A stretch of DNA of 51,684 bases from positions 1-51,684 of IMG/VR virus record IMGVR_UViG_3300032046_000036. One strand, given 5' to 3'. The position numbers and the translations under genes are program-made. Each line of letters begins with the position of its first letter. The stretch's first letter is position 1. The notes below the pieces were generated by a model. The model did not search any database. It worked only from the letters and a program-made list of their open reading frames with translations, and had not been told where the DNA came from. This DNA is from a virus. Positions 4,647 to 51,684 of the stretch are shown here, piece after piece.

Positions 4647-5897
4647 CTACGTTTCTTTGTCTCCTTGTGCAGGCGGATACTCAAAATACGGATTCCCTTC
4701 CTCGCCATACTTCAGGTTGCACGCCCCTTTTTGAAGGTCGGTCAGTTTCTCTATGAAATCGCCGGCCTCCTTGATAGTCAGGTCTGACGAAGTCCCTTTC
4801 TTGTAAAGAGCCATCATCATTGTTTTCCTTATAGCGGTGTCCAGTCTTAACTCGCCGCACAAGACGAATATCTTCTTGCCCTGTGCCTGTGTAAGGAATA
4901 ACGTCTGGTCATTACTGAGACCTCCACTGGTTTTCGGTATAGGCTTCATCTCCGGTTTTGGTTTTCCTTTCTTGCCTTGTTCCTGCGGTTTCTCGGCTTC
5001 TTCCTGCCCTGTCTGACTTGCTGGAATTTCCGAGGACTCCCTTACCTCCTCCTCATCGGTTACCACCACCGCATCCGTGTCTGCCCTCGGGTTATCATCT
5101 ATAGTCGGCAATAGCACCCTCTCAACCGAGGCTTTCGGTAGAATTCGTTCCGTATCTTCCCTATACCGCATAATGTCTTCAGGGGTATAGGGTAATGCCG
5201 GCGTATCCGCCTTGAGTCTGTATTCCATCCGTATCACCAGCGGATAATGGGTGGATTTGTGTTGCTTGCCCTTGTTGTCTGTATAGGTAATCTCCCTTTT
5301 CTCCCGCTTTAGAATCAAAGGCACCAGAGCGAATCTACCGAGCAATTCTTTGGCGAATTCAAGCCCAGATGACACATCTATCAAGGTGTTGCTTGAACCG
5401 GTAACTATCCGATAGACTCCACCCATATTGAGTCTGTGTAACATCACATAGAGAGTTCCTTGCTTGTTGCATTGGCCATCAGGATTATCAGGGCCTTTCA
5501 GTTCTTCACAGGGGCAATCCCGCACCATCCACTGCCTTGTCGCCTCATCCCACCGTGATGCCTCTATCCTATTACCCTCGCACTTGAGTCCATTAACCCC
5601 CCACCACCTCAAAGCCTGTGGGAAAATAGTGGGTATATCGTTAATAGGGAGCATTACCTCAAGTTCCGTGGGCTTCTCTCCATAAACCCGTTGCACTTCT
5701 GGTGGCACAATGAAGTAAGAGACATCGGATGGGTGGGAACAGAAGTCGCAGTATTCGGTTTGAGGGTGCTTGCATTTCGGGGAATTACCGCTCTTATTCT
5801 TTATGACGACCCCTAGTCTTATTTTACCTAACATCGGCAATCGTCTTCGCTCGGAAATTCCATCTATCGTGGAATATTTCCTGCCAAATCCTGCCAT
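4647..5897 (-). CDS. Conserved phage protein linked to recombination module
   Basis: A 416-residue protein. The first 230 residues match a recurrent phage family (RLPMLGKIRLG near the start, IVPPEVQRVYG, then a Cys cluster CPC/C and GGVYRIVTGSS). These are often annotated only as 'hydrolase or metal-binding protein' or recombination directionality-like. A Glu/Lys/Pro-rich linker (about 290-335) leads to a helical C-terminal domain. It ends two bases before the Cas4/RecB-like nuclease gene begins, so the two are expected to be made together. The biochemical function is unknown. Confidence 0.55.
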   Translation of the reverse strand: MAGFGRKYSTIDGISERRRLPMLGKIRLGVVIKNKSGNSPKCKHPQTEYCDFCSHPSDVSYFIVPPEVQRVYGEKPTELEVMLPINDIPTIFPQALRWWGVNGLKCEGNRIEASRWDEATRQWMVRDCPCEELKGPDNPDGQCNKQGTLYVMLHRLNMGGVYRIVTGSSNTLIDVSSGLEFAKELLGRFALVPLILKREKREITYTDNKGKQHKSTHYPLVIRMEYRLKADTPALPYTPEDIMRYREDTERILPKASVERVLLPTIDDNPRADTDAVVVTDEEEVRESSEIPASQTGQEEAEKPQEQGKKGKPKPEMKPIPKTSGGLSNDQTLFLTQAQGKKIFVLCGELRLDTAIRKTMMMALYKKGTSSDLTIKEAGDFIEKLTDLQKGACNLKYGEEGNPYFEYPPAQGDKET

Positions 5898-36638: not shown

Positions 36639-38783
36639 TTACGGCGCCTTGCTTGGTAGTGCTATGCACCGACAGTTTATCACATTACCGGGTTCGCCTT
36701 CTATATCTGACGGGTATTTCAACCCGTTTGAGAATTTGTTACCAACCATTATAACCTCTCCATCTATAGCGTGGTTATAAGGGCTTGCAGGCGGTTGCCT
36801 GACGAATTCATCTCTTGCTGATAACCACTCGTGATATTCCATCCCTTCCATTCTCATAGCCAGAAACCGCGTGCCGGATGAGGTCTGTGCGGTTTCTGTT
36901 CGGGCTATGGTTAGGGAACGGTTAGATGTGAAATTAAATACCGTCTTTATCCTGTCCTGTAATTCGTTTATAGTTTCTTTGGCATTGATACCTTCCATCA
37001 GTGTTTCTCGCAGATTGCTTCTAACGGTGTCATTTATGCCGACTACTTTTATCAGTTTCTTGTTAAGAAATTCAATCATTTTAGGGTCTGTTAAGTTGAA
37101 CAGAAATAGTCCGCCAGTTTCTTCTGCAAGTTGCTGTCCTGCCATTGTCATAATCGTTTCATAAAGCGGTCTCGTTATTTCCTTCAACCGCTTATTCCAT
37201 TCCTCTTGTGCAAATAATATCTGGTCAATATCTGAAGCCTCAACCTTTATAATGTCTTTTCCCCCTTCAAGTCGTTTCAATTGGTTGACGCGTAATTCAT
37301 AGACATACCGTTTTATCTTGCTCTGGAATTTTTTCTCATTGGGGTCAAGTATTTTCTCTACATAACTATCCCAATATTTCTTGCGGTCTATTTTTAGTGT
37401 TGACTGCCTTCGGACTGTCTCCTGTGCAGGTGGCGTTCTGGGTGACTGTTCTTCACTACCACCAACCAGTGATGATGCAGGGACTAATGCGAATGGAATA
37501 AACGACTCATTACCCCATGGGACATCTTCAAGATTGAGTTCCAGTCTCTTATTTATCTTGTTCAAGGGATAGTGCATATCAAATAATATCTTGGCTGACT
37601 CAAGTTTTACCTTGAAGTCTTCCTGCAATGCCTCAATTATAGAAGTATCAAAGTATCCCCATATCTGACCACCTTCAATGAACTTAAAGAATTTCCCCTC
37701 AACCACATCCATTAGGTAGTTCATCTTGGGTATGAGATTCTTCTGCCAAAAGCCTTTGTCTTGGGAAAGGGCGGTGGCGAAATTTAGGTCTTCATAGACT
37801 GACAGTTCCGATTTCGGCACTTTGAAAACCGCCATAATTTCGTCCCGATTCCACTTCCTCTGCTCAAGAAACAGCATATCGGTATGGCTTAACTGCGTCT
37901 GCTGGTATTCAATCCCGCCCTCCAGCATCGCTATCCGTCTCGCCTTACCCGGCCCTTTGTGCCTATCTTCCCACGACTGTCTGATGGCGGTTCGCTGTTC
38001 TTCAGTAAGCCCTTGCGTGCCTTTATAGACCAGTATACCACCGGGGTCGGCAGAATTCTCAAAGAACGCCGAGTTCCATCTCATTGCGTTCCAGTCCTGG
38101 TCTATTCCCATCTTTGCGGCGGAAAGTGGGGACAGCCCCCTGTAATAATTATAGGGATTGAAATATTTGAACTGGATGACCTGGGCAAGAGTGAGGTTAA
38201 TCGGCTCTAACTTGTTATCTTCCCTGTATTCCCATCCTATAATCATATTGTTTTTGACAATGGGCTTGAATTTTCTTCCGCTGACCGGCCATATTTCTGT
38301 AGGCAAAACCTCGTATTTTTCTTCACTCCCTTTCGGCTTCTCCAGTAACCACATACACTCGCCATCCAGCCCCAGATAAATCATTGTCGCTTCCCATAAC
38401 TGGCTCCGGCTTATACTGGGATTAGGATTGAGGAAAAGGTCGTATATCTTGCCTTCCTCAATTATCTTCGGGCTTTTTACCTCTCCTTTTGCCAGTTTGA
38501 ATGAGACTCTGGCTATATTCTGAGCGATGGCATTGATGCATCCATAAACCCACGAGTGCTGTGCGTATGGTTGTGTGAGTTCGTTCTGACCAAGCCTCAG
38601 CCTCAGGGATTGGAAGAAAGTAAGGTCGTCAGGAAGCGTTCCTACTTGCGACCCCTTGACCTTGCCATAAAGGAATTGGCGGGTTGTCCTATCAAGCGGT
38701 TTTGTTTCAGTCTTCACCGCCTTGGATGGTTTCGGTAACCTGTATTTGACTATCCGTTTTATATCGCTTTTTTTATTACTCAT
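36639..38783 (-). CDS. Portal protein fused to MuF-like minor head domain
   Basis: A 714-residue protein. The first ~440 residues are an HK97-family portal (SWVYGCINAIAQNIARVSF, LNPNPSISRSQLWEATMIYL, FEPINLTLAQVIQFKY-type region, VPKSELSVYEDLNFATALSQ). After a Ser/Pro/Gln linker, residues 460-714 form a phage Mu gpF/SPP1 gp7-type domain (IARTETAQTSSGTRFLAM, GMEYHEWLSARDE and the closing NCRC). Portal and MuF are usually separate genes, so this is a fusion. Confidence 0.85.
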   Translation of the reverse strand: MSNKKSDIKRIVKYRLPKPSKAVKTETKPLDRTTRQFLYGKVKGSQVGTLPDDLTFFQSLRLRLGQNELTQPYAQHSWVYGCINAIAQNIARVSFKLAKGEVKSPKIIEEGKIYDLFLNPNPSISRSQLWEATMIYLGLDGECMWLLEKPKGSEEKYEVLPTEIWPVSGRKFKPIVKNNMIIGWEYREDNKLEPINLTLAQVIQFKYFNPYNYYRGLSPLSAAKMGIDQDWNAMRWNSAFFENSADPGGILVYKGTQGLTEEQRTAIRQSWEDRHKGPGKARRIAMLEGGIEYQQTQLSHTDMLFLEQRKWNRDEIMAVFKVPKSELSVYEDLNFATALSQDKGFWQKNLIPKMNYLMDVVEGKFFKFIEGGQIWGYFDTSIIEALQEDFKVKLESAKILFDMHYPLNKINKRLELNLEDVPWGNESFIPFALVPASSLVGGSEEQSPRTPPAQETVRRQSTLKIDRKKYWDSYVEKILDPNEKKFQSKIKRYVYELRVNQLKRLEGGKDIIKVEASDIDQILFAQEEWNKRLKEITRPLYETIMTMAGQQLAEETGGLFLFNLTDPKMIEFLNKKLIKVVGINDTVRSNLRETLMEGINAKETINELQDRIKTVFNFTSNRSLTIARTETAQTSSGTRFLAMRMEGMEYHEWLSARDEFVRQPPASPYNHAIDGEVIMVGNKFSNGLKYPSDIEGEPGNVINCRCIALPSKAP

Positions 38784-40148: not shown

Positions 40149-40340
40149 TTATTTGTCATTAGGAATTATACTTAATAAAATTATTAGCCCTATACCAACC
40201 ATTATCATTTCTTGGTCGTGCTGAAGTTTATAATGGTTGAATCGTTCGCGTTCGGTTGCACTTTCCGGGGGTTCACCAGTTACACATCCTGCTAATAGCA
40301 TTGTTGCTATTAGGATAATCACTAACAATATTCTTGACAT
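40149..40340 (-). CDS. Small lipoprotein with C-terminal hydrophobic segment (spanin-like)
   Basis: A 63-residue protein from the ATG at 40340 behind AAAGGAGATAATAAG. The signal peptide ends in lipobox LAGC (Cys 19) and a second hydrophobic segment covers about residues 46-58 (MIMVGIGLIILLSI). A lipidated N-terminus plus a C-terminal membrane segment is the layout of unimolecular spanins, though this protein is very short for one. It follows the tmRNA. Confidence 0.5.
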   Translation of the reverse strand: MSRILLVIILIATMLLAGCVTGEPPESATERERFNHYKLQHDQEMIMVGIGLIILLSIIPNDK

Positions 40341-40388
40341 CTTATTATCTCCTTTCAATTATGATTATAGGATTTCTCCTTTAATTTA

Positions 40389-40730
40389 TGGTGGAGGCGG
40401 GCGGAATTGCACCGCCGTCCATACGGACTTCCATAATAGCATCTACATCCATATTCAAGCGTTTTTTCTCAACGACTAACCGGTTGCTTGAACACCGATT
40501 AGCCATCCAGCAATAGTTTGTTTCAGGTATCCTACCTATTGCTATAGGAAACCATATCCGAAACTTTAGCGTCGCACCTGACTATCGGAGTCATCGGGTT
40601 TGACGAACGGCTATGCCGCTTTTCTTAAAGGTTCAGCAGTTAAGACTGCGACCGATTTTTAGCGTGGCCCTTCGGTCAACCACGGAATGCAACTATTACT
40701 TCCATCCGCTGTCGAATCTAATTCGCCCCC
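40389..40730 (-). ncRNA. ssrA: tmRNA (transfer-messenger RNA)
   Basis: A complete 342-base tmRNA. The acceptor stem pairs GGGGGCG (5') with CGCCUCC (3'), including the G3-U pair that specifies alanine, and the 3' CCA is encoded. The T-arm (GGCGG, 7-base loop, CCGCC) is intact, with loop UGCAAUU, and the conserved 5' GAUUCGAC is present. The tag reading frame begins GCA at 40649 after AAAAATCGGTC and reads AVLTAEPLRKAA before UAG (40611-40613). Pseudoknot-type stems follow the tag. tmRNA rescues stalled ribosomes and marks the products for proteolysis; the usual tag ends LAA, here KAA. Phage tmRNAs are known but rare. Confidence 0.93.
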
Positions 40731-40742
40731 AATTTGTTCGGT

Positions 40743-40868
40743 AATGGACATAGCCTCGTCAGAGTTTTTGATGGCAGTTGGGCGTCGTTACCACTGCCAC
40801 CGTTCTAACATCTCCTAACGACAAGGATGACTATGTCCATTTCCATAAATGCAGATGCTGAACTGCAT
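40743..40868 (-). ncRNA. Putative structured RNA between terminase and tmRNA
   Basis: The 154 bases between the terminase stop and the tmRNA 5' end contain a perfect 11-bp closing stem (40831-40841 with 40743-40753), an internal 7-bp hairpin (40793-40799 with 40772-40778) and shorter hairpins, forming a multibranched fold, plus a 6-bp hairpin just upstream (40849-40868). No long open frame is present. It could be a riboswitch-like leader, a processing signal for the tmRNA precursor, or an independent RNA. No known class was recognised. Confidence 0.5.
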
Positions 40869-40884
40869 ATAAACTTAATTACTA

Positions 40885-42456
40885 TCATATCACCGATATT
40901 TTCGGCTCCGGCCCGAATCCTATATTTCTAATTTGCCAGCAAATAGCCCACGCTATTATAGTATCATCATAATCGCCCTCGTATTTACCTTCCCCACTAT
41001 CTTGAAAATTTCGGCATTCCGATAAGAATATCGGACAGTTAATCTTCATAAAATTGTTTTCAACCGCAGTCTTTATACCAGAAAGCATAATTGGTCTGGT
41101 CTTGAGGTTAGTCTGCCAGCCAAGTTTGACCGACTGGCCTACCGCGTCATAATCTCTGTGATAATAAAGCCGGGGATAATGCAGGACATTAAGTAGTGTA
41201 TTGAGTGTGCTATGCCCGTGATTATTCGCTTCTGGAGCCAGCCAAGCCGTATTATATTCATAGCCAAGTTTCGCCATTTTCTCGCCAAATACTTCCGGTT
41301 TCCACCGACCGTGCAGGCACGCAACCTGCTCTCCTGTTTCATAGTCAAGGACTCCGGCACAGGAGAAGTCTGAATTAGGCAGTCCTTCACCGACATCACC
41401 ACCTATAATATATTTATGTCCTACTATAGGTTTGACCCAGATAATCAAGCAACCATCCTCTTTGACTTCTATTGGTAATTTACATAAAGAAATAAGTGTG
41501 TTTATGATTGTTATATCAAAGTAATGTTGACCCGATACGACAAAAGCCGTAATGTCATCTTCTGGGTGTTCCTGTAAAAATAGTTTCTTCAAACCATTCT
41601 GTTTGCTTCTCCGCCACTTCAACTGTTCTGGTCTAATTGTTATCTGCCATTTCTCAGCCACCATCTTGATAAAATCCTTTTCCTCGGCAGTAGGAACTAT
41701 CTGTTCATCTTTCTCAAGAGATAATGAATTCGCTGGTTCTATGAACCAAGGCAGGAATATAGGTATCCAGTCGTTTCCACCCTTCTTTGCCTCGTCCCAA
41801 GTCTCAAAAAACCATCCCTTCGCCCCTTGTGCTGTGCCTTCCAGCACCACGGAACCGTATGGACAAGCCTCACATAAGCCGGCAATCAGGTTCGCTATGT
41901 CTTGAATATTCATAGAGTATCCAGTCTTGGTCTTGCCCCAGAGAGGAACCTCGCTCCCGTGAATACGCTGGAGTGTCATACTGCGCCCGAAAGACCTGTT
42001 TCCGGCTGTGCCAATATGGAACTTTGAATTGAGTTCTTTATACTCTATCTCCGCCTTGTTATCGTAATCCCTGACTGGTTTAATTTCTGGTAAGAGTTTT
42101 CGGTCAAACAGGTTGGCAATTCTGAATATTTCCACCGTGCTTGCCTTGTCGTGAGCAAGAGTAATAAGATTCTGGTTCTCCTTTGTCGCGGTGAGATAAA
42201 AACTTTCCGCCTGCTCTTCAGTTGTTATTCCACCTTGTCTGTATTTGAGCACAAGATAGTGTGGTAAGACACTGCTGTTCTTTTCTTGTCGTTTCTGTAA
42301 TTCTATCCTTTTCATCCGCCTGTATATTATCTGTGTTCGGTTGAAGAACAATGGAATTATCCGCTCCTTCTTGTCCCTAATGTAGAGAAAGCGTTGGATG
42401 TAACGGGCATCACTATTGAAAATATCCCTGATATTATTCGGTATTGTTTGTGTCAT
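40885..42456 (-). CDS. Large terminase subunit (TerL)
   Basis: A 523-residue protein. The ATPase has the deviant Walker A KYRQGGITT (residues 71-79), RIHGSEVPLW near the Walker B position, and GTAQGAKGWFFETW. The RNase-H-like nuclease shows IIGGDVGEGLPNSDFS, the middle acidic motif in LAPEANNHG, and YDDTIIAWAI. It packages DNA into the prohead. It overlaps no neighbour but follows the small terminase by seven bases, with GGAGG upstream. Confidence 0.92.
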   Translation of the reverse strand: MTQTIPNNIRDIFNSDARYIQRFLYIRDKKERIIPLFFNRTQIIYRRMKRIELQKRQEKNSSVLPHYLVLKYRQGGITTEEQAESFYLTATKENQNLITLAHDKASTVEIFRIANLFDRKLLPEIKPVRDYDNKAEIEYKELNSKFHIGTAGNRSFGRSMTLQRIHGSEVPLWGKTKTGYSMNIQDIANLIAGLCEACPYGSVVLEGTAQGAKGWFFETWDEAKKGGNDWIPIFLPWFIEPANSLSLEKDEQIVPTAEEKDFIKMVAEKWQITIRPEQLKWRRSKQNGLKKLFLQEHPEDDITAFVVSGQHYFDITIINTLISLCKLPIEVKEDGCLIIWVKPIVGHKYIIGGDVGEGLPNSDFSCAGVLDYETGEQVACLHGRWKPEVFGEKMAKLGYEYNTAWLAPEANNHGHSTLNTLLNVLHYPRLYYHRDYDAVGQSVKLGWQTNLKTRPIMLSGIKTAVENNFMKINCPIFLSECRNFQDSGEGKYEGDYDDTIIAWAICWQIRNIGFGPEPKISVI

Positions 42457-43746: not shown

Positions 43747-45099
43747 TTAACCTCCTTTTCTTAAAGATAATATATTACTGGGTATTCCTCTAATCCTACG
43801 TTTGGCTATGTCTATATATTCTGGACTGATTTCAATCCCTATGTAATGTCTGCCAAAACTTCTTGCCACTAGGCAGGTAGTCCCTGCCCCTGCGAACGGG
43901 TCTAATACAATACCACTATCAAAACTGGCGCCGCATCCACAGTCAGTAAGTTCAAATCCAATCTTCTTCTGAACCTGTTTGGTAAATAAAGTGTTGGTCG
44001 GAGATGCTTTTATCTGTTCACCTGTTTTATCACGCCATATTTTCTTTATTAGGCAAGGTGCTTTCTTCCAGATAACTATTCTTGGCTTACCACATTTCTT
44101 ACAGATAAATTTAGGGCAGGTTGCCCTAATTGGTATCTCACATAGTTGAGTCGGATAACTTGCGGCGTGTTTTTCGTCTAATGGACAAGTCGGAATAACC
44201 CATACACAACGCTTGTTACGACCTGTTGGGTTAGGGCGTAAATTCCTACCCGCCCTTTCTCCCATTACATATTGATTGGTCTTGGCTTTATATTTGCCCC
44301 TTATCATTTCCCCACCCCACCTGTTCAAAGATTTTGTATAAATATCAAATTGCTGGTCAAAGAAATAATCCGGGCTTTTGGTAAAGAAATATAAATACTC
44401 AAAATCAACTGTGAATCGGTCAGTAGCAGAAGCCGGCATACAATTAGGTTTTGCCCAGATAATGGTATTACGTCTAATCCAGCCTCGCTTTTGCATTTCT
44501 AATACAAACATTTCGGGAATGCCTACCAATGATTTTGATGTCATATAACGCCCTGGTGGAATAAATTGGGGTTGCCCCGGTGCATTAATACTATACCGAT
44601 TTTTGGTTTTTGTAGTTCTATTTTCACCACCAAATCCTTGTAAAGACCCACCGTAACTATCGGCAATATTAAGCCAGCACGAACCATCTCCTTTCAAGAC
44701 CCTCTTTACTTCATCCAAAATATCGCAGAGATGCTTGATGTAAAGCCCTGGGGTAGGCTCAAGACCTAATTCACCACGCCAAGCCCTACATTTTGAGCAA
44801 AAGGCACTGGGGCTATTCCCCCATCCGTGCAAACCCTTTTTAAGGGCAGTATGACTACTTAAAGCGCCACCTATACCCTGCTGGTTTTGATGGATTAACC
44901 GTGCCGTATAATTGACCCAGCGGTGTTGACAGCCGGTTTTGCTATCCCATATAATGGGATTTGTTTTATATGACCTCAGACTCCAATACGGCGGCGATGT
45001 TATAACTATATCTATTGATTCGTTAGGAATTTCCTTTAAGATTTCTAAGGCATTCCCCTGAAGTATGGTATCAATAATATCCTTAACTCGGTATATCAT
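43747..45099 (-). CDS. DNA amino-methyltransferase, SPPY type, with zinc motif
   Basis: About 450 residues from the ATG at 45099; the longer frame overlaps SSB and is unlikely. The catalytic motif IVITSPPYW lies near the N-terminus and the SAM motif DPFAGAGTT near the C-terminus, the order of beta-class N4-cytosine/N6-adenine methyltransferases. IGIEISPEYIDIAKRR ends the domain. Inserted Cys pairs (CSKC, CKKC) suggest zinc-binding loops in the recognition region. No cognate restriction enzyme is visible, so it probably protects phage DNA or alters host expression. Confidence 0.85.
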   Translation of the reverse strand: MIYRVKDIIDTILQGNALEILKEIPNESIDIVITSPPYWSLRSYKTNPIIWDSKTGCQHRWVNYTARLIHQNQQGIGGALSSHTALKKGLHGWGNSPSAFCSKCRAWRGELGLEPTPGLYIKHLCDILDEVKRVLKGDGSCWLNIADSYGGSLQGFGGENRTTKTKNRYSINAPGQPQFIPPGRYMTSKSLVGIPEMFVLEMQKRGWIRRNTIIWAKPNCMPASATDRFTVDFEYLYFFTKSPDYFFDQQFDIYTKSLNRWGGEMIRGKYKAKTNQYVMGERAGRNLRPNPTGRNKRCVWVIPTCPLDEKHAASYPTQLCEIPIRATCPKFICKKCGKPRIVIWKKAPCLIKKIWRDKTGEQIKASPTNTLFTKQVQKKIGFELTDCGCGASFDSGIVLDPFAGAGTTCLVARSFGRHYIGIEISPEYIDIAKRRIRGIPSNILSLRKGG

Positions 45100-45115
45100 A
45101 ATTATTATTCCGCCT

Positions 45116-45532
45116 TTAGAACGGTATATTTTCTTCTTCCTCTTGCTCGTGATTCGGCTGGTCTTCCTCTGACCTCTGTTCCGGGAGAACAGCCTGTTTA
45201 TCCGTCTTGGGCAGAAACTGGACTCGCTGGGCAACTACCTCTATACTTGACCTTTTCTGCCCTTCCTTAGTCTGCCACTGATTCATACGCAACCGACCTT
45301 CCACCAAAGCAAGACTGCCTTTCTTGAGATGCTCGGCACAGGCTTCTCCCGTCCGACCCCACACAGTTACTTTGATAAACAGAACACTCTCTTTTTTTCC
45401 CCCATCTTGTGTCGTATAATGCTCATTAACCGCTAAATCAAAAGAACAAACCGCCTTTCCTTGTTGGGAATATCGCAATTCAGGGTCTCGCGTTAGGTTA
45501 CCCATCAGTATCACGCAGTTAAAATTAGCCAT
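45116..45532 (-). CDS. ssb: Single-stranded DNA-binding protein (SSB)
   Basis: A 138-residue protein with the OB-fold of bacterial SSB: NFNCVILMGNLTRDPELRY, FDLAVNEHYT, KVTVWGRTGEACAEHLKKG and VEGRLRMNQWQTKEGQKR. The acidic tail ends EEEENIPF, equivalent to the DDDIPF tip by which SSB recruits partners. It coats single strands in replication and recombination. Confidence 0.95.
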   Translation of the reverse strand: MANFNCVILMGNLTRDPELRYSQQGKAVCSFDLAVNEHYTTQDGGKKESVLFIKVTVWGRTGEACAEHLKKGSLALVEGRLRMNQWQTKEGQKRSSIEVVAQRVQFLPKTDKQAVLPEQRSEEDQPNHEQEEEENIPF

Positions 45533-45580
45533 ATTGTCTCCTTTCTTATATTGTTCCCGCTATGTCTGTTGCCATAAATG

Positions 45581-45958
45581 TTATGGATTCCATTCCAGTG
45601 GTTTCTGTGTATGCCACTCGCAAAAACTGATTTTAAGTATGTTCACGAAAGGTCTGATATTGTCCATTACCTGCAGAGCAAGTTCCTTTCTTGACTTCTG
45701 GTTGAGTTCACGAATCATATCCGCTAATAGGTCGTGGACAACTGCCAAGTTGTTAATCATTATTGCCCTCTGTTCAAGAGTTATTGCGAATTGTTCGGGT
45801 GCCGGGGCTTCAGATTGGTCTATCTGAAACTTCCCGTCTGGTAAGAGAATAATCCTGCACTTCCTGTTAGATAACACCAACCCGCTATCATCGTAGAGAG
45901 CAATCCAACCTGGGGGCAACCATTCACCTATCTTTATCGTTATTCCGAATAGTTTCAT
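45581..45958 (-). CDS. Hypothetical protein
   Basis: About 125 residues from the ATG at 45958, which overlaps the previous stop (ATGA) and has GGAGG eight bases upstream. A beta-rich N-terminal half (ITIKIGEWLPPGWIALYDDS) is followed by a helical half. No family was recognised. Confidence 0.55.
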   Translation of the reverse strand: MKLFGITIKIGEWLPPGWIALYDDSGLVLSNRKCRIILLPDGKFQIDQSEAPAPEQFAITLEQRAIMINNLAVVHDLLADMIRELNQKSRKELALQVMDNIRPFVNILKISFCEWHTQKPLEWNP

Positions 45959-46233
45959 TGTCCACACCTCCACCCTCTTGCTATTGACTCCACACCGTCA
46001 TTTTCACACCAGCACGGCCTGAGGATAAACCCGCAACCGGCCTTCTTGGTTATCTCATCCAAATTCCGCTTGTAAAACTTGCAATGGGGTGGCTCCACTT
46101 CAACAGTGCCTCCACTTTCAACCACCTCGTGGACTGGCTTTTCATAGTGCCTACAACCGCCGATATTGGCAACATCTGGTTCCTTACCATTTATATTGAC
46201 AAAGAAAAGGCAGTATCGGACTGATTCAGTCAT
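45955..46233 (-). CDS. Cys-rich hypothetical protein
   Basis: A 92-residue protein with seven Cys scattered in short loops (GGCRHY, PHCKFY, GCGFILRPCWC), suggesting metal binding. It is coupled on both sides to its neighbours. No family was recognised. Confidence 0.55.
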   Translation of the reverse strand: MTESVRYCLFFVNINGKEPDVANIGGCRHYEKPVHEVVESGGTVEVEPPHCKFYKRNLDEITKKAGCGFILRPCWCENDGVESIARGWRCGQ

Positions 46234-46571
46234 TATACGAACTCCTTTAGTGGCATCGGTATCTTCTCATTTAGCGGGCGCCACAGGTGAAGACAATGTT
46301 TGTGATTGTTGATATAGTCCGCCTTCGCCGGATGTAACTGCATAGCCACCTCGTCATCTTCAAAGAACATTGACTTGATTATATTCATTATCCGCCAAGT
46401 AGGGGTCTTCTTCTCCGCCGATACCGATATATGCTCCCACCCCAGTCCATTACTGGCAATTACTTTGTAATCGTAGCCATCTATTAGGATAATAAAAGCC
46501 CCGTTATACTCATCGCCCCACTTTCCATAAAGGTTAACCCTATACTGATTGAGGTAATCAAGATTTCGCAT
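46233..46571 (-). CDS. DUF7694-like phage protein
   Basis: A 112-residue protein matching a widespread phage family: GWEHISVSAEKKTPTWRIMN, then DEVAMQLHPAKADYINNHK and CLHLWRP. The family has no known function and is often near modification or replication genes. It follows the amino-methyltransferase gene. Confidence 0.7.
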   Translation of the reverse strand: MRNLDYLNQYRVNLYGKWGDEYNGAFIILIDGYDYKVIASNGLGWEHISVSAEKKTPTWRIMNIIKSMFFEDDEVAMQLHPAKADYINNHKHCLHLWRPLNEKIPMPLKEFV

Positions 46572-46595
46572 TTATAACTTCTTCCTCATTTACGG

Positions 46596-47351
46596 TCATA
46601 AAGGCAACATCGCAAAACTGGAGAGGCGGTGTTCGGCGATTTTACAGTATTCCTCTGATATTTCTATGCCGATAAAACGCCTGCCTAATTCTTTACAGGC
46701 AACAGCGGTTGTTCCAGAACCGAGAAAAGGGTCAAGGATTAAGTCGTTTTCTTGAGAACACGCAACGATACATCGTTTAGGTATTTCGCTTGGGAACGGA
46801 GCAGGATGAGGATTATTTTTTTCAGGATTTATTCTCCAGATTTCCTTATAATGGAATGCCTCTGGATTAAATTTTGGAGAAAACCTTCCTTTCGTAATCC
46901 AGAATATATATTCAACTATAGGCATAAACCTTATCGGATCTAATACTGGACTATTTCCTCTGTCCCAAATAATCATTTGTCTTATATTAAAAGATAATAG
47001 CCATTCGTGGGGGAAAATTGCCTTATGATTAACTAATCTCGGCTTATGATTATAGAAAATACTTCCGTCATCCTTCAAAACTCTCAAACATTCCTCCAGA
47101 ACTTCTTTTTGATTTTTTTGATAATCCTTTTCTGGTAAATCATCCTTAAACTCTCCATAAGAAATTGCTGATTTAACCCAAGCGTCTTTTGGGTCATGCT
47201 TTTTATTAGCCGAATGTTTATTATACGGAGGGCTGGTAATCACAAGGTTAATACTTTTATCTGGTATATCTTTCATAACTTTAAGGCAGTCTCCACAGAC
47301 AACCTTATTTACCATCTGCGTCCAGTCGGTGATTTTGTTAAGTTTTAGCAT
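46596..47351 (-). CDS. DNA amino-methyltransferase (SPPY type), intact copy
   Basis: A 251-residue enzyme. LVITSPPYNKHSAN is motif IV, DPFLGSGTTAVAC motif I and RFIGIEISEEYCKIAEHRL motif X-type, again the beta-class order. SPPY favours N4-cytosine, though N6-adenine is possible. Its first 15 and last 16 codons are repeated almost exactly around the C5-methyltransferase frames at 47.8-48.9 kb, which shows that a second copy once existed there. Confidence 0.85.
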   Translation of the reverse strand: MLKLNKITDWTQMVNKVVCGDCLKVMKDIPDKSINLVITSPPYNKHSANKKHDPKDAWVKSAISYGEFKDDLPEKDYQKNQKEVLEECLRVLKDDGSIFYNHKPRLVNHKAIFPHEWLLSFNIRQMIIWDRGNSPVLDPIRFMPIVEYIFWITKGRFSPKFNPEAFHYKEIWRINPEKNNPHPAPFPSEIPKRCIVACSQENDLILDPFLGSGTTAVACKELGRRFIGIEISEEYCKIAEHRLSSFAMLPL

Positions 47352-47632
47352 ACCTTTTTATTTTCTATCGGGAATTTATGACACAATTCATCAAAACAAA
47401 TCTTAAAAAAATCAGGCTTTTGTTCCAGTATTATCTTAAAGGCTGTTTGTATATAAAACGAGTGAATCTTGCTATGACAAAAATAATGGAGGTCAATTAA
47501 ATTGTCTGATTCATTATCTCCACCATATCTTTTAGGTTTAATATGATGAGTCCTTTTAACCAAACTTGTTTTACTTAAAATCTTTTTACAAAAAGGACAA
47601 ATATTCTTTTCCACCTTTGCCGATATATTCAT
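47345..47632 (-). CDS. HNH endonuclease
   Basis: A 95-residue protein with CPFCKKI, HHIKPKRYGGDNESDN and HYFCHSKIH, a compact HNH domain. It is AT-rich like the HNH gene at 30769. Its start overlaps the end of the leader ORF (ATGA) just behind the pseudoknot/terminator region, and its stop overlaps the methyltransferase start. It may be a homing element linked to the methyltransferase duplication. Confidence 0.8.
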   Translation of the reverse strand: MNISAKVEKNICPFCKKILSKTSLVKRTHHIKPKRYGGDNESDNLIDLHYFCHSKIHSFYIQTAFKIILEQKPDFFKICFDELCHKFPIENKKVC

Positions 47633-47718
47633 AAAATAAAAAGGGCGTCACCACTCGGTAAAGAGAGGCTGAAGATTTGACTCTTCTGACGCCCTTCAGT
47701 TTTTGGAATTAAAGACAT
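47629..47718 (-). CDS. Putative leader peptide overlapping the terminator
   Basis: A 29-residue frame, MSLIPKTEGRQKSQIFSLSL and onward, starting behind GAGGGGTTGTCT. It runs through the stem of the terminator and its stop overlaps the ATG of the HNH gene. Translation through the stem would open the terminator, a classic attenuation layout. Expression is not proved. Confidence 0.45.
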   Translation of the reverse strand: MSLIPKTEGRQKSQIFSLSLPSGDALFIL

Positions 47719-47740
47719 AGACAACCCCTCATTTACCGAG
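47633..47740 (-). promoter_or_regulatory. Pseudoknot/terminator attenuator before the HNH gene
   Basis: CTCGGTAAA (47732-47740) pairs perfectly with TTTACCGAG (47654-47662), which lies in the loop of a terminator stem GGGCGTCA/TGACGCCC (47687-47694 with 47643-47650) followed by a U-rich tract. Together they form an H-type pseudoknot. An inner hairpin GAAGA/TCTTC adds a third stem. The layout suggests regulated termination or a functional small RNA. Confidence 0.6.
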
Positions 47741-47747
47741 TTATCCA

Positions 47748-47775
47748 ACAATAACAAATTCCCATAGAATGTCAA
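47748..47775 (-). promoter_or_regulatory. Sigma70-type promoter for the leader/HNH/methyltransferase genes
   Basis: TTGACA (47770-47775) and TATTGT (47748-47753) on the minus strand with a 16-base spacer, preceded by GAATAAAGATTTTTC, the same upstream block as at 11162 and 7013. Confidence 0.6.
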
Positions 47776-47789
47776 GAAAAATCTTTATT

Positions 47790-48749
47790 CTACAGCAGAT
47801 AGTTTACCGAGCGTAATTTACGGTCATAACGGCAACATCGCAAAACTGGAGAGGCGGTGTTCGGAGATTTTATATATTTTATAATTCTTTTTGCTATCCA
47901 TTCGGCAACAGGCACACTAACCGCATTGCCTATAACTATTCCTCGCACAGAGTCCAGTTTGTTGTTGGGAATCCCTGTAATCTCTCTTTTTCTGTCGGTG
48001 TTAGTTTCCGTAATATAAGTGTCTTGCCATATAAAGGAAGCGTTGCCTCGTTTTCCTTGGTTGACAGTATTGGCAACGACTGTATTCCATTCGTTTCGTA
48101 ATGACCAACCTTTGTCCCCGTAAGATTTTGCTGTAAGGGTGTTAACTTTTGCGATAAGGTTTTCTCCGAATCCGAATTTACGCAACCGCTTATCATCTGC
48201 TCTAATTGTGTTAGCGATATACGTTTCAGCCGTTGGGTCTTGTCTTTCCCCGTCTCTTGCAGAAATACATAACCCCCTCTCCCCCATTTTTTGCTTCTTC
48301 TTATCATCCCCGCCACCGCCTTTTGGCTCAAATAATATTTCGGGTGGACAGATTTTTCCAAGACATCCGACAATGAACACTTTCTTGCGTCTCTGGGCAA
48401 GTCCGAAATATTGACTGTCCAGTAATCTATAAGACCACCCATAGCCGCTTTGGGCCAGCGTTTGAAGAACGATTGCCATATCCCTGCCTTCGTTAATGGA
48501 AAGGAGTCGGGGAACATTCTCAATAAGTAACCATTGCGGGATAAGTATGTTGACAATCCGCATACACTCAAAGAAGATAGAACTTTTTTCGCCTTTAAGA
48601 CCCTTGCCTTTTGGGTTGGCGTTTGATATGTCCTGGCAAGGGAATCCGAACGCAATAAGGTCAAGATGTCGGTATGTTTCGGGACTTTCGGCCAGTGCTT
48701 TTTCAAGACTTTCAAAGCATACGGCATTATTTCCACTTGACCGATACAT
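47790..48749 (-). CDS. C5-cytosine DNA methyltransferase, frame B (motifs IV-VIII and X)
   Basis: A 319-residue open frame containing LIAFGFPCQDIS (motif IV, catalytic Cys at about 39), LLIENVPRLL (VI), YFGLAQRRKKVFIVG (VIII) and IVIGNAVSVPVAEWIAKRI (X). It lacks motif I and motif IX, both in the overlapping frame 47936-48817. Its last 30 residues after the methyltransferase end read through the remnant of the neighbouring methyltransferase copy. Two intertwined frames with split motifs recall the two-subunit enzymes M.EcoHK31I and M.EaeI. The true start is uncertain: the first ATG lies after motif I. Confidence 0.75.
   Translation of the reverse strand: MYRSSGNNAVCFESLEKALAESPETYRHLDLIAFGFPCQDISNANPKGKGLKGEKSSIFFECMRIVNILIPQWLLIENVPRLLSINEGRDMAIVLQTLAQSGYGWSYRLLDSQYFGLAQRRKKVFIVGCLGKICPPEILFEPKGGGGDDKKKQKMGERGLCISARDGERQDPTAETYIANTIRADDKRLRKFGFGENLIAKVNTLTAKSYGDKGWSLRNEWNTVVANTVNQGKRGNASFIWQDTYITETNTDRKREITGIPNNKLDSVRGIVIGNAVSVPVAEWIAKRIIKYIKSPNTASPVLRCCRYDRKLRSVNYLL
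47824..47872 (-). pseudogene. C-terminal remnant of a second amino-methyltransferase copy
   Basis: Reads KISEHRLSSFAMLPL then stop, matching the end of the intact enzyme (KIAEHRLSSFAMLPL). About 50 bases are nearly identical to 46589-46640. Confidence 0.8.
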
Positions 48750-49518: not shown

Positions 49519-50154
49519 TCATTTGGTTTGATTTAACAACCCAAGTCCGTAATTTAATATCTTAAATTTCGTTGCCTCGTTAGTTGCCGCCGCATAAGCC
49601 GCATAAACCGCCTTAGCCGCATAAGACGCCGCCTTCTTAGCCGCATAAGGCGCCGCATTAGCCACCGCATAAGACGCCGCCTTAGCCGCATAAGCCGCCG
49701 CCTTAGCCGCATAAGACGCCGCATAAGACGCCTCATAAGCCGCATCAGCCGTATAAGCCGCATAAGACGCCGCATAAGCCGCATAAGCCGCATCAGCCGC
49801 ATAAGCCGCCGCCTTAGCCGCCGCATAAGCCGCCTTTTTATTTTTCGCTGACGGATTCTTAATACATTTCTTCGCCGCCTCTATCGCCTTTCTGGGACGG
49901 TCATCATCAGGATATTTGGTTTCATATAGGTTTATTACCTGTTCTGCGGCATAGACTGCATATGATACACAATCGTGATAAGTCATAATCCGCACGATGA
50001 ACCAGTTCGCCCAATCATACTTTTCAGCCTTCATCATTTTGTCCAAAAGGGACAGTGAGTCCCTTTCTTTTTTGTCCCACCACTCAATCGCTTCCTGACA
50101 AGGTGTATTCTTTGTAATCCATTTATCAGTTATTGACTTTATTATCGGTTTCAT
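49519..50154 (-). CDS. Alanine-rich repeat protein (paralogue 1)
   Basis: A 211-residue protein. Residues 1-95 form a helical domain (EAIEWWDKKERDSLSLLDKM, YAAEQVINLYE, RPRKAIEAAKKCI), and about 108-190 are tandem repeats of the type AYAAKAA/SYAAYA. The C-terminus (FKILNYGLGLLNQTK) is shared with the paralogue split by the window ends. Similar AYAA proteins are annotated as Imm-5-like putative immunity proteins; whether this is an immunity, antifreeze-like or structural protein is unknown. It follows GGAGACCGAAA. Confidence 0.75.
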   Translation of the reverse strand: MKPIIKSITDKWITKNTPCQEAIEWWDKKERDSLSLLDKMMKAEKYDWANWFIVRIMTYHDCVSYAVYAAEQVINLYETKYPDDDRPRKAIEAAKKCIKNPSAKNKKAAYAAAKAAAYAADAAYAAYAASYAAYTADAAYEASYAASYAAKAAAYAAKAASYAVANAAPYAAKKAASYAAKAVYAAYAAATNEATKFKILNYGLGLLNQTK

Positions 50155-51167: not shown

Positions 51168-51684
51168 TCATTTGGTTTGATTTAACAACCCAAGTCCGTA
51201 ATTTAATATCTTTAATTTAGTTGCTGCCATATTAGCCACATCAGCCGCCTTAAACGCCACATCAGCCGCCTTAGACGCCGCATAAGCCGCATCAGACGCC
51301 GCATAAGCCGCCGCATCAGCCGCCTTAGACGCCGCATCAGCCGCCTTAAACGCCACATCAGCCGCATCAGACGCCGCATAAGCCGCATCAGACGCCGCAT
51401 AAGCCGCCGCATCAGCCGCCTTAGACGCCGCATTAGACGCCTTAAACGCCACATAAGACGCATTAGCCGCATTTTTATTTTTCGCTGACGGGTTCTCAAT
51501 ACATTTCTTCGCCGCCTCTATCGCCTTTCTGGGACGGTCATTATCAGGATATTTGGCTTCATATAGGTTTATTACCTGTTCTGCGGCATAGACTGCATAT
51601 GATACACAATCGTGATAAGTCATAATCCGCACGATGAACCAGTTCGCCCAATCATACTTTTCAGCCTTCATCATTTTGTCCAAA
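51168..51684 (-). CDS. Alanine-rich repeat protein (paralogue 2), C-terminal part
   Basis: The visible 171 residues begin inside the conserved domain (DKMMKAEKYDWANWFIVRIM) and end ILNYGLGLLNQTK, as in paralogue 1. The repeat region (about 95-150 here) differs from paralogue 1: units of the form ASKAADAA, ASDAAYA and FKAADAA, so the two proteins diverged by repeat expansion. The gene continues at 165-1 when the ends are joined. Confidence 0.8.
   Translation of the reverse strand, partial: LDKMMKAEKYDWANWFIVRIMTYHDCVSYAVYAAEQVINLYEAKYPDNDRPRKAIEAAKKCIENPSAKNKNAANASYVAFKASNAASKAADAAAYAASDAAYAASDAADVAFKAADAASKAADAAAYAASDAAYAASKAADVAFKAADVANMAATKLKILNYGLGLLNQTK
51627..51684. repeat. 58-base end repeat identical to 1-58
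   Basis: Bases 51627-51684 equal bases 1-58. The sequence also occurs at 49988-50047 inside paralogue 1. It restores a full reading frame across the join, supporting circular closure; because it lies in a duplicated gene, it could also be an assembly break at a repeat. Confidence 0.8.

Follow-up and report, generated by a model that had tools for sequence, protein, structure and literature searches.

A phage-encoded one-piece tmRNA with a tag ending in KAA and an uncommon T-loop/D-loop pair

The tmRNA gene and its neighbours

The window, which is the whole stretch of DNA analysed, is a 51,684-base phage record in which terminase, portal, head protease and major capsid genes are found. ARAGORN called a single tmRNA in it (40389-40730, minus strand), whose tag reads AEPLRKAA followed by a stop. 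Features at and around the locus are listed below, each with the evidence used.

36639..38783, minus strand: portal fused to a Mu-F-like domain (PF04860, PF04233; phrog_2662)
40149..40346, minus strand: small ORF, lipoprotein-type signal MSRILLVIILIATMLLAGC (sequence)
40389..40730, minus strand: tmRNA gene (ssrA), one-piece (standard) form (ARAGORN, Rfam RF00023, fold)
40405..40411, minus strand: T-loop UGCAAUU, G in place of the canonical U55 (sequence)
40611..40637, minus strand: tag frame GCU GAA CCU UUA AGA AAA GCG GCA UAG, AEPLRKAA and stop (ARAGORN)
40718..40719, minus strand: D-loop AG (AGAUUCGAC), proposed partner of the T-loop G (base contingency)
40740..40844, minus strand: strong leader hairpin just 5′ of the tmRNA (RNA fold)
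40885..42456, minus strand: terminase large subunit, upstream neighbour (phrog_2, phrog_24361; tblastn to terminases)

The gene is 342 nt long, encoded CCA included. It was covered end to end by the RF00023 model of Rfam (model positions 1-374 of 374; 115.4 bits, E-value 1.8e-44; gathering score 47), and its folding energy had a z-score of −4.05, none of 100 shuffles being equally stable. By direct reading, the RNA has the acceptor stem GGGGGCG/CGCCUCC with a G3-U pair, GAUUCGAC, the T-arm GGCGG-UGCAAUU-CCGCC and ACCA encoded at the 3′ end. A permuted, alpha-type tmRNA (RF01849) was ruled out, as ARAGORN and Rfam both gave the standard order. The locus is thus a real and complete phage tmRNA of the full-length one-piece form. 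The original prediction of a phage-encoded tmRNA with an acceptor G-U pair, an encoded CCA and a stable acceptor/T-arm fold, to be checked by a covariance-model search, was borne out by these results and by the neighbouring phage genes.

The tmRNA had also been placed between terminase and portal. This order holds, with several small ORFs separating the tmRNA from the portal; the first downstream ORF is that at 40149..40346, for which no Pfam match was obtained, and the portal is the first large conserved gene downstream. Two relatives with terminases 78-81% identical (L121 and L122) carry other small genes and no tmRNA in the terminase-portal slot, and because of these relatives the tmRNA is regarded as accessory, dispensable cargo in a variable slot. 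The terminase ORF of L122 (L122:186-2837), of 883 aa, is interrupted in frame by ~360 aa that begin with Cys, end with His-Asn ahead of a Ser and include LAGLIDADG-like motifs; by these features the insert reads as an intein.

The leader hairpin (105 nt) lies 9 nt upstream of the tmRNA and has an outer stem of 13 bp of the AAUGGACAUAG/CUAUGUCCAUU type. Folding of 40731-40884 gave −51.7 kcal/mol (z-score −5.36; 0 of 200 shuffles equally stable). No Rfam family was found for the hairpin, which could be a processing element or the remnant of an insertion. Since no consensus (sigma-70-like) promoter was found just upstream of the tmRNA on the minus strand, transcription is likely to occur by read-through from the late operon.

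Elsewhere in the window, positions 1-58 and 51627-51684 have the same 58-bp sequence, despite the classification of the record as lacking end repeats; the genome is probably complete and either circular or terminally redundant, or else assembly stopped in the repeat. Three DNA methyltransferase genes lie at 43747-48749 (minus strand), surrounded by duplicated segments of 50-57 nt. Two Ala-rich proteins with imperfect repeats of 9-12 nt and shared ends are encoded at 49519-50154 and 51168-51683 (minus strand), the former with weak Imm5-like/DUF6931 matches.

The tag and its KAA ending

The coding part occupies positions 94-120 of the tmRNA gene (ARAGORN) and comprises eight codons, from the resume codon GCU to the stop UAG. 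Twelve codons had been predicted; the additional four, read as AVLT, are open-frame codons upstream of GCU. A resume codon, a stop and two terminal alanines, which together characterise a tmRNA tag, are all present in AEPLRKAA UAG; the hydrophobic residue that usually, not by definition, precedes Ala-Ala is replaced by Lys. The alanine charged on the tRNA-like domain would add one more Ala in front of the tag.

The nearest homologues are three marine viral contigs from IMG/VR (L128, L130 and L137), 55-57% identical overall, with the tags AEKNFSLAA, AEPSFAIAA and AEENFSLAA. Their sequence at the position aligned with the resume codon likewise begins GCN GAA. Aligned with these tags as AEP-LRKAA, the window's single sequence has Lys for a hydrophobic and Arg for a small residue. 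KAA looks derived, to judge from the alignment, because these homologues end in IAA or LAA. The apparent move from hydrophobic-Ala-Ala to Lys-Ala-Ala offers a natural test of degron drift.

The frequency of the ending was assessed with a pattern for one-piece tmRNAs ending in KAA, run on 84,980 species genomes and on viral contigs. Matches were obtained at 25 loci in the species genomes and in two viral contigs. ARAGORN upheld KAA as the tag ending at 14 of these genome loci. The cellular KAA tmRNAs belong to Clostridia, Syntrophaceae, Oxalobacteraceae and Legionellales, with tags ending LKAA in Clostridia/Oscillospiraceae and proteobacterial tags such as ANDYVYAKAA and ANDSVYAKAA. In one viral contig (L177) the tag ANSDEYQKAA was upheld by ARAGORN; the other (L178) was recognised as a tmRNA by Rfam (80.8 bits), its tag being read by eye as ...DNYAKAA. 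An LAA version of the pattern matched in 46 of 299 Pseudomonadota genomes, versus none of 298 for the KAA version apart from the search-centre genome, which matched. KAA is thus a rare but recurrent ending shared by phages and cells, and its predicted rarity was confirmed by the 14 upheld cases in 84,980 genomes. The suggestion that the tag could identify the host fared less well: AEPLRKAA is absent from the 25 genome loci matched by the KAA pattern, and the homologous viral tmRNAs are tagged differently. Run as a degenerate pattern on the viral contigs, from which the window's own record was possibly excluded, AEPLRKAA gave no match.

Altered recognition by ClpXP-type proteases, as originally proposed, is plausible; the effect is probably modest, the terminal alanines being kept. 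In Escherichia coli, a change of the antepenultimate tag residue raises the KM of ClpXP only modestly, the last two alanines weighing more (PMC7652416). Since AEPLRKAA keeps both, a ClpXP-type protease should still recognise it, probably less well than LAA. An alternative is that KAA is tuned to spare tagged proteins or slow their degradation, so that ribosomes are released without destruction of the product. The rarity of KAA beside LAA in the Pseudomonadota genomes and the IAA or LAA endings of the nearest homologues speak for such tuning. The retained alanines, which are the main ClpX contacts, the modest KM effect in E. coli and the existence of cellular KAA tmRNAs speak against it, and we consider it rather unlikely.

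The T-loop and its proposed D-loop partner

In tmRNAs with a UUC T-loop, the first base of the D-loop is G, mostly as GG. This usual, not defining, combination of UUCRA with GG is replaced in the window by UGCAAUU with AG. The T-loop had been correctly read by the original prediction, but it is not an isolated oddity, as the GGACGNNGGTGCAATTCC pattern matched more than 119 viral stretches and the D-loop carries a paired change. About 65 of these stretches contained a tmRNA called by ARAGORN, mostly permuted, and many of those without such a call are probably chance matches. No standard-form tmRNA with a UGCAAY T-loop was found in the viral contigs except that of the window. Three shorter one-piece viral tmRNAs (L012, L067 and L077) have the same T-loop type.

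Across three bacterial phyla, position 55 was U in 253 of 254 T-arms and G in one. These T-arms were matches to a pattern left free at position 55, which the GGC[AG]GUA loops of the sampled Alphaproteobacteria escape. The alphaproteobacterial cellular tmRNAs sampled have this GGC[AG]GUA T-loop, with G at position 55, and an AG D-loop. Viral two-piece tmRNAs commonly have UGCAAUU, which is near-absent from cellular ones outside Alphaproteobacteria (1/254); position 55 is G in the tmRNAs of the Pelagibacter phages Mosig and HTVC008M and of Caulobacter phage CcrBL9. An independent case is an unrelated one-piece tmRNA of a Bacillota genome (G485/L197), with a UGCAA T-loop and an AG D-loop. The idea of a purely viral G55 T-loop is weakened by this case and by the alphaproteobacterial cellular tmRNAs. 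Another apparent hit (G141/L183) was rejected as a chance match, no tmRNA being present there.

The D-loop base equivalent to G18 was A in 23 of 27 tmRNAs with G55 versus 0 of 39 with U55, all 39 having G (Fisher p = 5e-14, for sequences that are not independent). The remaining four G55 tmRNAs have the D-loop AGGAUUCGAC, longer by one base. Because a D-loop A accompanies G55 across tmRNAs, AG and UGCAAUU in the window are best read from this covariation as matched partners in a tertiary pair rather than as a defect. The G-for-U change in the T-loop would be balanced by the A-for-G change in the D-loop, and the elbow should not be disabled. A literature search yielded no description of this covariation, which is a weak indication that it is new. 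The linked change merits a systematic survey of viral versus cellular tmRNAs.

A G55 elbow, if true, would lack the U that is the target of TruB modification. A distinct G55/A18 elbow, recurrent in phage tmRNAs, might together with KAA give partial independence from host RNA modification and from the usual tag protease, a speculative reading to which we assign a low probability.

Proposed role and known systems

tmRNA releases ribosomes that have become stuck and adds a tag to the proteins left unfinished on them. The gene of the window, which an uncultured tailed phage carries as accessory cargo, is very probably an intact one-piece tmRNA that performs ordinary trans-translation with host SmpB during infection. 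We infer the following course. The tmRNA would be transcribed together with the surrounding minus-strand genes, trimmed by host enzymes and charged by alanyl-tRNA synthetase through the G3-U pair and the CCA end. Host SmpB and EF-Tu would bring it to ribosomes that have stalled on a broken mRNA. Such a ribosome would move to the GCU resume codon, add (A)AEPLRKAA and terminate at UAG, and the tagged protein could then be degraded. Ribosomes would be recycled late in infection, the phage supplementing trans-translation. Dependence on the host is suggested because no SmpB was found among the phage proteins scanned, which were part of the ORFs. The GCN-GAA start and resume codon, kept in the viral homologues despite only 55-57% identity, appear to support the proposed function.

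It is improbable that the gene is a host ssrA captured when a prophage excised imprecisely, or at an attachment site, and does nothing for the phage. Integration at ssrA is common (PMC11915505), and a Gp3-like recombination directionality factor (PF18897) at window positions 4647-5897 (minus strand) hints at a temperate past. However, no integrase was found among the scanned proteins, the 3′ end of the tmRNA is not duplicated, the gene is placed among packaging/structural genes, and the tmRNAs closest to it are viral. Decay into a relic is very unlikely: close relatives lack the gene and its Rfam score of 115 bits is below the 144-214 of four cellular tmRNAs, yet acceptor, T-arm, CCA and tag frame are all intact and other viral tmRNAs score in a similar range (81-123 bits). 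Least probable of all is a decoy or inhibitor that would draw off host SmpB, in the manner of the TLD-only RNA from mycobacteriophage DS6A, an RNA that inhibits E. coli tmRNA (PMC4131195, PMC11915505), as the RNA of the window retains an mRNA-like domain, resume codon, open tag and stop.

Among known systems, bacterial one-piece tmRNA (ssrA, RF00023) shares with the tmRNA of the window the G3-U acceptor, GAUUCGAC, T-arm, encoded CCA, full-length model match, resume codon and short tag ending in Ala-Ala. The latter differs from it in the UGCAAUU T-loop with D-loop A, in KAA and in its phage carrier. L128, L130 and L137 are likewise one-piece, with tags starting AE(K/P/E), an identical resume position and 72-73% identity over the first 100 nt, but their tags end in SLAA or AIAA, their T-loop is UUC[AG]A with a GG D-loop, and their neighbouring genes are different. 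DNA similarity to cultured phages was found neither for the window tmRNA nor for L128.

Two-piece (permuted) tmRNAs of alphaproteobacterial phages (Mosig, HTVC008M and CcrBL9) and of many IMG/VR contigs share the G at U55 with the window, and that of Mosig also the AG D-loop; they differ in their permuted gene order and tags. Five viral permuted tmRNAs (L019, L083, L090, L110 and L114) have very long tags of ~31 aa, ANDNIAVDNVVYASFGSQKATVSYENFALAA. Mycobacteriophages and Bacillus phage G are likewise reported to encode tmRNAs (PMC4131195). The original prediction took phage tmRNAs to be known in few groups, whereas a published survey counted 402 phages with a tmRNA gene among 18,146 genomes (PMC9004378). 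As a kind, phage tmRNA genes are already known, and only the rare tag ending and the uncommon matched loop pair set this one apart.
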